Assembly: GCA_029004715.1 (NCBI GenBank)
Contig: JAQVYX010000009.1
Coordinates: 1 to 35,745 of the forward strand
Direction of reading: 5' to 3'
DNA length: 35,745 bases
Source of the DNA: Acidaminococcaceae bacterium
GTDB taxonomy: Bacteria > Bacillota > Negativicutes > Acidaminococcales > Acidaminococcaceae
The notes under the pieces: model-generated
Databases searched by the model: none
Told to the model about the DNA's origin: nothing
Seen by the model: the letters and a program-made list of their open reading frames with translations, nothing else
Shown here: one piece after another, positions 3 to 24,541 of the stretch
Layout of the letters: each line of letters opens with the position of its first letter
Position numbering within the stretch: position 1 is the first letter of the stretch
Made by a program: the position numbers and the translations under genes

Positions 3-773
3 GTTATAAAAAAAAGAGTACATCCTGTATTCCAAAAAGACTTAATGGCCTTTGTTGCAAGTAGAGAAATGATTAAGCTATATGAATCTGGAACAACAGA
101 GGTTTACAAAGAGTATTTACGTACAGATAATGAACATAGTGGCAGCCAATGGTATAAAAATAGGTATAGTTTTGCACGAAATCCCCTAAATGGGCATATA
201 ATGCTGTTTATTGTGGTGAAAAATATTCATGCAGAAAAATTGGCGGAAGTTAAAATAAAATATGCCGCTGAACACGATGCTTTGACGGGAGCTTATAATA
301 GAGGGGCGTTAAGCAGGCTTGCTAAGGACAAACTTGAAAGGTTGGGTGATGATAAGTATACAGCCTTTGTTATTTTCGATTTAGATAAATTCAAAGAAGT
401 TAACGATACATATGGTCATCAAAAGGGTGATCAAGTTTTGTGTACTTTAGTTAAAACAATCCATAGAGTTTTCCGCAGAGAAGATTGTGTTTGTCGTTTA
501 GGCGGAGATGAATTTGCCGTGCTGCTGGAAGGAATGGGAGACGAGGCATTGCTGCTCAAAAAAGCTAAGGAGATTTGCAAGAGTATTGCCAATGAGCATT
601 TTCATTTAACTACAGCACCGGTGACTTGTTCGGTGGGGGCAGCTATAGCTCCGCAACATGGTATTACTTTTGAGGAGTTATATAAACATGCGGATGAAGC
701 ATTATATTTAATAAAAGATAAAGGCAGAAATGGTTATTGTTTGTATGGACATGACCCTACAAAATTGGCTTGA
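3..773 (+). CDS. PAS-GGDEF diguanylate cyclase, 5' truncated by window
   Basis: Reading frame stays open from base 3 to the window edge (VIKKRVHPVFQKDLMAF...), so the ATG at 45 is probably internal. RLGGDEF active-site motif; RRED five residues upstream matches the inhibitory I-site RxxD; PAS-like segment N-terminal. Confidence 0.88.
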   Translation, partial: VIKKRVHPVFQKDLMAFVASREMIKLYESGTTEVYKEYLRTDNEHSGSQWYKNRYSFARNPLNGHIMLFIVVKNIHAEKLAEVKIKYAAEHDALTGAYNRGALSRLAKDKLERLGDDKYTAFVIFDLDKFKEVNDTYGHQKGDQVLCTLVKTIHRVFRREDCVCRLGGDEFAVLLEGMGDEALLLKKAKEICKSIANEHFHLTTAPVTCSVGAAIAPQHGITFEELYKHADEALYLIKDKGRNGYCLYGHDPTKLA

Positions 774-824
774 TAAACTTTTCTTAGGTCGTAAGCAAAT
801 AAAACTAAATATTCTGATAATTGC

Positions 825-853
825 TTGCATTTTATAAATTTTAGAGTTATAAT
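825..853 (+). promoter_or_regulatory. sigma70-type promoter of ncRNA candidate
   Basis: TTGCAT (825-830), 17-nt spacer, TATAAT (848-853). Confidence 0.65.
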
Positions 854-859
854 TTAGGC

Positions 860-1168
860 GATGATAGGGCTGGATTTAAATAGGTGGAGAAGGATCGGAA
901 GATGTGAAGATGGTTTTCTTTTCATTGAAGAGTTATTGCTCGGAATAGTCTAAAGTGGGATTTGTCCTTCTAGCCTATTTTTATACAAGGGGTAGGTGAT
1001 ACTTGCCTACCCCATTGTTTAGAGGCAACACCTGGGAGGGTGTTTGGTGACGTGGTCGCCTTACTCATTCCGTATGTTCATAGTATTTGGAAAATGTTTG
1101 ATTATTAACTTGGTGGTCGCGTCAAAAAAAGAAGGTAGAGGGGATAAAATCCTCTACCTTCTTTTTTG
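860..1168 (+). ncRNA. unclassified structured non-coding RNA candidate
   Basis: No ORF. Consensus promoter immediately upstream and strong intrinsic terminator at the end. Several complementary helices: AAATAGG..AGAAGGA with TCCTTCT..CCTATTT; GGGGTAGG/CCTACCCC; AACACC/GGTGTT; GGTGA/TCGCC. Confidence 0.5.
1131..1168 (+). terminator. bidirectional intrinsic terminator
   Basis: AGAAGGTAGAGG ... CCTCTACCTTCT with T-run on + strand and A-run before it (T-run on - strand). Confidence 0.85.
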
Positions 1169-1209: not shown

Positions 1210-2052
1210 TTAATTGTTCAGCAAGTTTTTGACAATATTTTCTAAAGCCATATTTGTTTCTTTGCTTAATTTATCTAGGGGGTCACCATTGTCATCGCTT
1301 TCAACAATCTGCGGGTCAATAGGAATTTTTCCTAAGAAAGAAATATGCTTTTCAGCAGCCAATTTTTCGCCGCCACCACTTTTAAAAATATTGTGCACGG
1401 TATGGCAATTAGGACAAACAAAACCACTCATGTTTTCGATAATGCCGGCAACGGGAATTTTTGCCAATTCACAGAAATTCAGAGACTTACGCACATCGGC
1501 TAGGGCTATTTCCTGAGGAGTAGTAACCACTATGGCTTTGGCATCAGGAATAGTTTGGACAACGGTTAAAGGTTCATCACCGGTCCCGGGCGGGCAGTCG
1601 ATAATTAAATAGTCAAGTGGTGACCACTTAGTGTCAGCCAAGAATTGACGAATTACACCAATTTTTATCGGGCCACGCCAAATAAGGGCGGCGTCATTAT
1701 CGGCAAGAAGACCCTGCACGGTCATTACTTCTAAATTATCCTTGTACTGGTATGGCAGCATTTTATTTCCCACGGTATTAATTGGGATACCGGTTAAACC
1801 AAGTATGCCGGCAATACTAGGACCGTGAAGATCAACATCTAAAAGTCCAACCTTAAAGCCTTTTTTACTTAAAAGTACTGCTATATCAGCAGCTACGGTG
1901 CTTTTACCTACGCCACCTTTACCACTCATTATCACCAATTTGTTTTTTACTTGGCTTAAAAATTTTTCAATATTGAGGTCTTGTTCACTGGGTTCAGGCT
2001 TGTTATTGCAGCTAGTACAATCCTCGTGCGAACAGTTATCGCATTCTGACAT
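1210..2052 (-). CDS. mrp: Mrp/ApbC-family P-loop ATPase (Fe-S carrier)
   Basis: VIMSGKGGVGKSTVAADIA deviant Walker A; Cys-rich N-terminus CDNCSHEDCTSC; C-terminal CPNC. Confidence 0.92.
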   Translation of the reverse strand: MSECDNCSHEDCTSCNNKPEPSEQDLNIEKFLSQVKNKLVIMSGKGGVGKSTVAADIAVLLSKKGFKVGLLDVDLHGPSIAGILGLTGIPINTVGNKMLPYQYKDNLEVMTVQGLLADNDAALIWRGPIKIGVIRQFLADTKWSPLDYLIIDCPPGTGDEPLTVVQTIPDAKAIVVTTPQEIALADVRKSLNFCELAKIPVAGIIENMSGFVCPNCHTVHNIFKSGGGEKLAAEKHISFLGKIPIDPQIVESDDNGDPLDKLSKETNMALENIVKNLLNN

Positions 2053-3928: not shown

Positions 3929-3967
3929 TTCAAAATTAACATAAAAATTTAAGGGAGAGTGTTGAAA

Positions 3968-4981
3968 ATGATTATTGTAATGAAACCAGGGGCACCATTA
4001 GAAGAGTGTAATAAAATAAAAACAGGGTTGGAAAAACAAGGGTTTTATATTAATGAAAGTCGTGGTGTTAATTTTTGTATCTTTGGTGTAGTTGGCGACA
4101 CAAGTATGGTGGATAAACGCCGTATCAGTGCTAATGATTGGGTAGAAAAAATTATGGCAGTGCAGGAACCCTATAAACGTGCTAATCGTATGTTCCACCC
4201 GGAAAATACAGTAGTGGATGTCTGCGGTCAAAAAATTGGTGGAGAAAAGTTGGCTATTATTGCAGGACCTTGTTCCATCGAAACTTCAGCTCAAATGGAT
4301 ATAGTGGCAGGAGCGGTAAAATCGGCAGGAGCTAATTTTCTACGAGGAGGGGCTTTTAAGCCACGTACTTCACCTTATTCTTTCCAGGGTTTAAAGGAAA
4401 AAGGACTAGATATGTTAGTAGAAGCCGGGAAAAATAGTGGGCTACCCATAGTTACCGAAATTATGTCTATAGATAAAATCGAGAAATTTGTTGAATGTGT
4501 AGATGTTATACAGGTAGGTGCACGCAATATGCAAAACTTTGAACTTTTAAAAGAATTAGGTAAAACCAATGTTCCGATTTTACTTAAACGGGGGCTATCA
4601 GCTACTATCGAGGAGTGGCTCATGTCTGCAGAATATATTATGTCTGGTGGTAATGATAATGTTATTTTGTGTGAGCGGGGAATTCGCACATTTGAAACTT
4701 ATACTCGTAACACTTTGGATCTTAGCTCTATTCCTGCAGTAAAAAAATTAAGTCACTTACCTGTTATAGTTGATCCAAGCCATGCAGCCGGAATGTGGTG
4801 GATGGTAGAGCCCTTGGCAAAAGCGGCAGTAGCTGTCGGAGCCGACGGACTTATGATTGAAGTGCATAATGATCCGGAAAATGCTTGGTGTGATGGTGGG
4901 CAAAGTTTAAAACCGGAGAGATTTGCGCTTTTAATGCAAGAGTTAGAAAAAATTGCAGCTATTGTAGATAGAAAAATTTAA
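3968..4981 (+). CDS. aroF: 3-deoxy-7-phosphoheptulonate (DAHP) synthase, copy 1
   Basis: N-terminal ferredoxin-like regulatory domain plus DAHPS core (AGPCSIET, RGGAFKPRTSPYSFQGL, GARNMQNFELL, DPSHAAG). ORF-track start is GTG 3959; ATG 3968 aligns with the start of copy 2. Confidence 0.93.
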   Translation: MIIVMKPGAPLEECNKIKTGLEKQGFYINESRGVNFCIFGVVGDTSMVDKRRISANDWVEKIMAVQEPYKRANRMFHPENTVVDVCGQKIGGEKLAIIAGPCSIETSAQMDIVAGAVKSAGANFLRGGAFKPRTSPYSFQGLKEKGLDMLVEAGKNSGLPIVTEIMSIDKIEKFVECVDVIQVGARNMQNFELLKELGKTNVPILLKRGLSATIEEWLMSAEYIMSGGNDNVILCERGIRTFETYTRNTLDLSSIPAVKKLSHLPVIVDPSHAAGMWWMVEPLAKAAVAVGADGLMIEVHNDPENAWCDGGQSLKPERFALLMQELEKIAAIVDRKI

Positions 4982-4996
4982 AGGGGGAAAGTTATC

Positions 4997-6010
4997 GTGA
5001 TTATTGTATTAAAACCTGGTGCACCGCAAGAAGAATGTCAGAAAATAAAAAATATTTTACTAAAGAATAATTTCCAAATTAATGAAATTGTTGGCGTTAA
5101 CATTACTATTTATGGTGTGATTGGCGATACTAGCACTTTTGATCCACGCAGTATTACGGTTAATGACTGGGTGGAGAAGGTAATGCGAGTGCAAGAACCA
5201 TTTAAAAGGGCTAATCGCATGTTTCACCCAGAGGCTACTGTCATTGATGTTAGCGGAGTCAAATTTGGCAGCAAAAAATTAGCAGTAATCGCCGGTCCCT
5301 GCTCAATTGAGACTACAGGGCAAATAAATGGAGTGGCTGCTTCCGTTAAATCTGCAGGAGCAACTTTGTTGCGGGGGGGAGCTTTTAAACCACGTACTTC
5401 ACCATATTCTTTCCAGGGCCTAAAAGAAAAGGGCTTAGATATGCTTGTAGCAGCAGGTAAGTCGAATAAATTACCTGTCGTTACAGAAATTATGTCCATT
5501 GATAAAATAGAAAAATTTGTCGACTGTGTTGACCTAATTCAAGTAGGTGCACGCAATATGCAAAACTTTGAACTTTTAAAAGAATTAGGTAAAACTAATG
5601 TTCCGATTTTACTTAAACGGGGGTTATCAGCTACTATCGAAGAGTGGCTTATGTCCGCAGAATATATAATGTCTAGTGGTAATGAAAATGTTATACTTTG
5701 TGAAAGAGGTATTAGAACTTTTGAAACTTACACCCGTAATACTCTAGATCTTAGTGCTATACCGGCAGTAAAGAAGCTGAGCCATTTGCCGGTTATAGTA
5801 GACCCTAGTCATGCTGCAGGTATGTGGTGGATGGTAGAGCCCTTGGCAAAAGCAGCAGTAGCAGTGGGCGCCGATGGACTTATGATAGAAGTGCATAATG
5901 ATCCTGAAAATGCTTGGTGTGATGGGGCGCAAAGTCTTAAACCTGACCGTTTTGCTAATCTCATGAAAGAACTTTCTGAGATTGCGGAAATAGTTGGAAG
6001 AGAACTATAA
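4997..6010 (+). CDS. aroF: DAHP synthase, copy 2 (tandem paralog)
   Basis: Same architecture as copy 1; GTG start after AAAGGGGGAAAG; aligns with copy 1 at a constant 1029-bp offset where I checked. Confidence 0.93.
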   Translation: MIIVLKPGAPQEECQKIKNILLKNNFQINEIVGVNITIYGVIGDTSTFDPRSITVNDWVEKVMRVQEPFKRANRMFHPEATVIDVSGVKFGSKKLAVIAGPCSIETTGQINGVAASVKSAGATLLRGGAFKPRTSPYSFQGLKEKGLDMLVAAGKSNKLPVVTEIMSIDKIEKFVDCVDLIQVGARNMQNFELLKELGKTNVPILLKRGLSATIEEWLMSAEYIMSSGNENVILCERGIRTFETYTRNTLDLSAIPAVKKLSHLPVIVDPSHAAGMWWMVEPLAKAAVAVGADGLMIEVHNDPENAWCDGAQSLKPDRFANLMKELSEIAEIVGREL

Positions 6011-22977: not shown

Positions 22978-23006
22978 AACACTGCTATTTTTTAGCAGTG
23001 TTTTTC
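22978..23006 (+). terminator. intrinsic terminator overlapping the 3' end of thiC
   Basis: AACACTGCTA-TTTTT-TAGCAGTGTT followed by TTTC. Confidence 0.75.
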
Positions 23007-24298
23007 TTTTTTGCGGCTTCCAAATATTCTCCTACTATTTTTACGGCGCAATAATCGCCGCACATAGAGCAGGCTTCATCATCAGTTTTATTTTTGGCAT
23101 CACGAAAACGTTGAGCTTTTATAGGATCGATTGCCAAACGTATTTGTTCAGGCCAGTTTAATTCTTTGCGTGCTTTGGCCATTTTTAAATCCCATTCAAT
23201 TGCTGCGGGAATACCTTTTACAATATCAGCAGCATGACCTGCAATGCGGGTTGCTATTACGCCTTCACGCACATCATCAATATCAGGTAAACCCAGATGT
23301 TCAGCAGGAGTAACATAGCATAAGAAGTCGGCACCGGCAGAGGCAGCAAGTGTACCACCGATAGCGGAAGTAATGTGGTCATAACCCGGTGCGATATCGG
23401 TTACTAAAGGCCCTAACACATAGAAGGGGGCACCTTTACAGAGGCTTTTTTGTAATTGCATATTAGTTGCTATTTGATTATAAGGTACATGCCCAGGGCC
23501 TTCTACCATAACTTGAACTCCTCGTTCCCAAGCTCTTTGTGTTAATTCGCCTAAGTTAATAAGTTCTTGTATTTGCGCTCTATCAGTAGCATCAGCTAGG
23601 CAACCTGGACGTAGGCCGTCGCCTAGACTAATGGTTACATCATATTTTTCACAGATGTTTAAAATTTCATCATAGTATTCATAAAAGGGGTTTTCTTTTT
23701 CATTATGGAGCATCCAGCCGGTAATAAACGAACCACCACGGCTAACTACATCCATGACACGTCCTTCAGTAGTTAAGGCATGTATTACATTCTTATTTAT
23801 ACCGCAGTGCATAGTCATAAAATCGGCACCATCTTTGGCCTGTTCTTCAATTACCTGAAAGATATCTTCTATTGTCATATCAACCACGGCACCATGCATT
23901 TTTATAGCATTTACGGTAGCTTGATAAATAGGCACAGTTCCTACCATAACAGTAGAAGCGGCAATTATAGAACGACGGGATTGATTTATATTGTCACCGG
24001 TGCTTAAATCCATGACGGCATCTGCTCCGGCATCAATGGCGGCTTTGAGCTTAGCTAATTCAGGTTCCGGATCAGGGTAAGAGGAAGAAGTGCCGATGTT
24101 AGCGTTAACTTTGGTGGTCAATCCTTTTCCTACGCCTCTAGGGACAAGATTTTTATGGTTAATATTTGCGCATATGGCAATTGTGCCTTCTGCTACCCTT
24201 TGTCTAATAACTTCGGCGGGGATATTTTCTTGTTGTGCTACGCTTTCCATTTCTTTGGTAATAATGTTGTTGCGGGCCTTTTGCATTTGTGTTTGCAT
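22985..24298 (-). CDS. thiC: phosphomethylpyrimidine synthase
   Basis: [44 protein letters not shown]-terminal [11 protein letters not shown] Fe-S motif. Confidence 0.96.
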
Positions 24299-24346: not shown

Positions 24347-24364
24347 CGCCTAAGACTTAAAGGT

Positions 24365-24447
24365 ACCACTTCCCTACGGCGGCATTATCCGCAATCAGGT
24401 TCTAAGGGTCGACCATAGGTCTCTCAGCATTTCGCGCCCCCAGTGAT
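24365..24447 (-). ncRNA. TPP riboswitch (THI element)
   Basis: - strand ATCACTGGGGGCGCGAAATGCTGAGAGACC...GAACCTGATTGCGGATAATGCCGCCGTAGGGAAGTGGT contains CUGAGAG, CCUGAU and GUAGGGAA THI-box cores. Confidence 0.95.
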
Positions 24448-24541
24448 ATAAAAAATATTTAATTACACGGTAAGTTTAACAAATATATCACCGAAATACA
24501 ATGATTTATTCACTAATTTAATATATAATAATGCGTAAGTA

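Follow-up and report, generated by a model that had tools for sequence, protein, structure and literature searches.

Intergenic locus facing mrp

The window (the whole 35,745 nt stretch of Acidaminococcaceae DNA that was analyzed) contains an intergenic gap at positions 774-1209, bordered by a GGDEF-domain gene on one side and a convergent mrp gene on the other. The segment 860-1168 within this gap is very probably a conserved, structured, and previously unlisted RNA gene of ~310 nt, judged from its sequence and that of its homologues in G001, a sister species, and in G009 and G014, which represent two further genera of the family. The features of the locus are as follows:

45-773 (+): GGDEF-domain gene (PF00990), upstream of the RNA and adjoining it only within the genus
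808-822 (+): CodY-box-like element AATATTCTGATAATT, lying 2 nt before the -35 hexamer, two mismatches to AATTTTCWGAAAATT
825-830 (+): -35 hexamer TTGCAT, read from the sequence; TTG core kept in all four homologues
848-853 (+): -10 hexamer TATAAT, identical in all four homologues
860-1168 (+): putative ncRNA of ~309 nt; homologues in G001, G009, and G014 at the same place relative to mrp
878-980 (+): domain I, helices P1 (878-884/974-980) and P2 (888-894/965-971) around the most conserved segment
936-948 (+): small hairpin YTG-NNYGGAA-YAG, the most conserved sequence element, all cells paired
989-1013 (+): hairpin II, GGGGTAGG...CCTACCCC, also found by scan; two compensatory positions among the four sequences
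1027-1044 (+): hairpin III, AACACC...GGTGTT; same stem in G009 and G014
1048-1124 (+): domain IV, closed by TGACGTGGTCGCC (1048-1060) and GGTGGTCGCGTCA (1112-1124)
1125-1167 (+): terminator hairpin with an 18-bp stem and T-run, from sequence and scan
1210-2052 (-): mrp/NUBPL-type P-loop NTPase gene (PF10609, E 4.8e-92), convergent

The initial annotation had described a stand-alone structured ncRNA with its own promoter and terminator. The promoter (TTGCAT at 825-830, N17, TATAAT at 848-853) and the strong terminator hairpin with its T-run at 1125-1167 were both found directly in the sequence, and the description was strengthened by the same promoter spacing, domain order, and terminator in the two further genera. 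The TTGCAT-N17-TATAAT pair was absent from the output of a simple promoter scan, so support for the promoter comes from conservation, including that of the 17 nt spacer, in four genomes. Hairpin terminators were also present in the RNA homologues, and the terminator at 1125-1167 can be read either way, so that mrp is probably served by it as well.

Elsewhere in the window, a TPP riboswitch over the gathering score was identified at 24354-24451 (-), where it immediately precedes a thiC-like gene (22985-24298, -). A shikimate/aromatic amino acid cluster begins with two neighboring and very similar DAHP-synthase-like genes (3959-4981 and 4997-6010, +), apparently a tandem duplication.

Homologues and conserved structure

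Copies of the RNA at the same place in G001, G009, and G014 indicated conservation of the locus. The sister species carries a 75%-identical copy with the same synteny, and the copies of the other two genera (G009, L008 ~1166-1484, +; G014, L009 ~2644-2335, -) lie directly beyond the mrp 3' end and are oriented towards that gene, such that mrp is a constant neighbor of the RNA in all four genomes. In G009 and G014 the upstream gene encodes not a GGDEF protein but an unrelated protein of ~150 aa that has no Pfam match, and the RNA is therefore not tied to its upstream gene. The G009 and G014 copies were found by running a first covariance model (R1), constructed from the two sister sequences, unfiltered on loci around mrp; their scores of 14.8 and 12.6 bits, respectively, were at chance level and the copies were accepted because of their place, orientation, promoter, and common element order. 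Across the class, R1 retrieved no other members above chance, and the G009 and G014 matches were recognizable only by synteny with filters off. A second model (R2) built from the four sequences scored these same four members at 98-111 bits and every other match at 28 bits or less. Its searches covered 63 genomes of the order, 381 of the class, and 399 sampled from the phylum and added no convincing member.

The remaining weak model matches were judged to be chance because they paired poorly in the core or aligned poorly, and G628, the top match in the phylum, was rejected as overlapping a coding ORF. Likewise, a BLAST match in g7 (G020) was discarded as parB-like coding sequence. Searches of phage and plasmid collections gave no match to the RNA, nor did an exact-pattern search of viral contigs, while an exact pattern run on genome contigs matched G001 itself (L071) and three unrelated records. 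The public record of G001 (L071:1-8000, G001:C253) is titled 'Acholeplasmataceae bacterium', which does not fit its gene content; from that content and its kinship to the window it looks like a mislabelled MAG.

The plus strand folded at -106.5 kcal/mol (z -5.6), and without the terminator the fold had only a modest stability excess over shuffled sequences (z -2.35, 1 of 200 shuffles as good). As the terminator supplies much of the z-score, stability alone is insufficient for the claim, which is carried by the comparison with relatives. The elements in common were P1, P2, the YTG-NNYGGAA-YAG hairpin, hairpin II, hairpin III, domain IV, and the terminator. P1 (AAATAGG/CCTATTT) has the core AATAGG/CCTATT that reads CATAGG/CCTATG in the other genera, P2 (AGAAGGA/TCCTTCT) covaries in both the model alignment and a hand-made helix table, and the YTG-NNYGGAA-YAG hairpin changes only between C-G and U-G and between G-C and G-U. 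Hairpin II is possibly an early terminator. At the place of hairpin III, the sister species has TTAACC/GGTTAA. Domain IV showed three compensatory positions in its outer six pairs versus G009 and G014 and is absent in G001, where it is thus not essential.

These helices include most of those named in the initial annotation, with AAATAGG/CCTATTT, AGAAGGA/TCCTTCT, GGGGTAGG/CCTACCCC, and AACACC/GGTGTT all present where they had been placed. The inner hairpin ATGTGAAGA/TCTTTTCAT was not kept even in the sister species (alignment with G001), and the proposed GGTGA/TCGCC pairing is more likely part of the longer domain IV helix (1048-1060/1112-1124) that is conserved in the other genera.

The initial annotation had also suggested looking for covariation, and compensatory pairs were found in both the model alignment and the hand-made table. 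Neither a match to a known Rfam family nor a lack of both conservation and covariation, the outcomes it had named as refuting, was observed. In the R2 alignment 94.6% of cells paired, falling to 30 or 52% when the partners were slid by one column. Four of the 14 pairs in the R2 structure were changed on both sides (6 of 500 shuffles had as many) and in the table of domains I-IV 12 of the 31 positions were compensatory, a number that none of 5000 shuffles reached (mean 5.0). Both tests are biased towards the structure, to which the alignments were fitted. The comparison, on only four sequences of which two are from sister species, points to a conserved secondary structure.

CodY-box-like element upstream of the promoter

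A conserved element resembling a CodY box and directly preceding the promoter was missed in the initial annotation. The CodY consensus is AATTTTCWGAAAATT (PMC5314169), and an element close to it was present in all four copies at 2-3 nt upstream of the -35 hexamer, with two mismatches of 15 each in the window (AATATTCTGATAATT), G001 (AATATTCTGACAATT), and G009 (AATTTTCTGAAATAT) and one in G014 (AATTTTCTGAAAAAT). Positions 808-822 were the only site this good in the window (0.55 expected), and the G014 element was one of three sites with no more than one mismatch in its 2.5 Mb genome, another of which has a G009 counterpart in the same intergenic place between the same genes. Near-perfect CodY boxes showed no genome-wide enrichment over a reversed control pattern. 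CodY itself is encoded in all four genomes (PF06018 over the cut-off) and the G001 protein carries the CodY HTH. A putative CodY box near the promoter and at a conserved position is the arrangement expected for a member of the CodY regulon, and control of the RNA by CodY is moderately supported by these sequence comparisons. A search of the open-access literature on CodY with Negativicutes found nothing relevant.

G009 and G014 also share a CodY box with one mismatch in the promoter region of a small gene (L120:1501-1515 and L121:1501-1515). This gene encodes ~116-118 aa with a CGFCG motif and adjoins a ~490-aa gene.

Alternative explanations and proposed role

It is rather unlikely that the stand-alone structured RNA has, in place of a CodY box, a conserved UP element or the site of another regulator, in which case the sRNA would be constitutive or under some other control. 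This explanation fits the AT-richness of the element, its location where UP elements sit, the two mismatches in three of the four copies, and the lack of a genome-wide excess of near-perfect boxes. However, the two lineages spell the element differently, yet each version stays near the palindromic consensus and 2-3 nt away from the -35 hexamer, and each of the four genomes encodes CodY. Less probable still appears a role connected with mrp, in which the RNA would be a 3'UTR or antisense element with overlapping convergent transcripts and the structured stretch would tune mrp mRNA decay or termination. As mrp is the one fixed neighbor in the four genomes, a linked role through convergent transcription is possible, and the terminator is readable in both directions. 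Nevertheless, the conserved promoter is directed at mrp, the G-U pairs within the helices would favor the plus strand as the RNA, and both transcripts should stop at the terminator before any overlap. In addition, a GGDEF gene directly meets mrp in G004 (mrp 71% identical), leaving no room for such an RNA.

That domain I (861-953, MIGLDLNRWRRIGRCEDGFLFIEELLLGIV) encodes a short leader peptide or small protein is very improbable. The initial annotation had stated that the stretch has no ORF; ORFs of 20-45 aa do exist, and the one that was tested lacked coding conservation. An ATG lies at the predicted start and 'GF-FIEELL-G' is common in frame to G001, but substitutions between the window and G001 in the longest shared domain I frame were 9/7/7 over codon positions 1/2/3 and its changed codons were 11 non-synonymous versus 6 synonymous. 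This lack of codon-position bias, unlike mrp in the same two genomes (41/13/146), led to the stretch being treated as non-coding, with no conserved coding potential apparent in the frame compared. When the frame is read in all four sequences, start codons and lengths also differ.

The size of ~310 nt would suit a divergent member of a known large RNA such as 6S, RNase P, or SRP, yet this is the least probable of the alternatives. In line with the initial annotation, which had matched the region to none of the RNase P, tmRNA, SRP, or 6S signatures, no Rfam 15 family reached its gathering score in the region and none of these four models matched at the locus; the tmRNA search covered the region itself. 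The G009 and G014 homologues also had no Rfam match. Matches at a lenient E-value were rejected, almost all of them lying on the terminator hairpin. 6S RNA (RF00013, canonical, G000:C2), RNase P RNA (RF00010, canonical, G000:C12), and SRP RNA (RF00169, G000:C66) were each found once elsewhere in the genome of the window, and the RNA is thus not a displaced or divergent copy of any of them. It shares with 6S RNA a stand-alone structured form and a long closing stem but is not matched by that model. Like the CsrB/RsmZ-type protein-titrating RNAs, it has several hairpins, with a GGA in the conserved loop (YGGAA), although GGA is not clearly enriched over dinucleotide shuffles in any of the four sequences (p 0.06-0.90) and a CsrA-titrating RNA was rejected on this basis.

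The best reading, which we consider somewhat probable, is a stand-alone, CodY/nutrient-regulated structured sRNA that probably acts in trans on its partners. The existence of a conserved RNA gene is well supported by the comparison of genomes, in which conservation, the promoter and box in fixed spacing, the structure, and the presence of CodY can be read; that the RNA is transcribed, that CodY binds and with which sign, and that there are targets on which it acts in trans are predictions. Transcription would begin near 860 from the sigma-A-type promoter (825-853) and stop at the terminator used jointly with the facing mrp gene, and the RNA may fold into domain I (P1/P2, with the YGGAA loop that is conserved), hairpin II, hairpin III, and domain IV. 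With branched-chain amino acids and GTP bound, CodY probably attaches to the box (about -52 to -38) and regulates transcription, with repression in rich medium more likely than activation. The RNA would accumulate as nutrients fall and act in trans on mRNAs or a protein. A precedent is RsaD of Staphylococcus aureus, a trans-acting sRNA repressed by CodY (PMC9266662). The RNA described here resembles RsaD as a stand-alone sRNA gene with expected direct CodY control in a CodY-bearing Firmicute, here predicted from sequence, but the host group differs and no sequence relation was found (no Rfam match), making RsaD a precedent and not a relative.

It is also conceivable, though improbable, that the locus represents a new large structured RNA family under direct CodY control whose conserved core (the YGGAA loop in P1/P2) binds a protein or ligand; if true, the RNA would function during starvation as a ligand sensor or in an RNA-protein device and not as a simple antisense sRNA. 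No relevant work on sRNAs in the Acidaminococcaceae was found in the open-access literature searched. The reach of the finding is modest, the family being narrow and seen in three genera; its contribution is a conserved RNA family that Rfam 15 does not contain, together with a predicted link to the nutrient sensor CodY that is concrete and testable.
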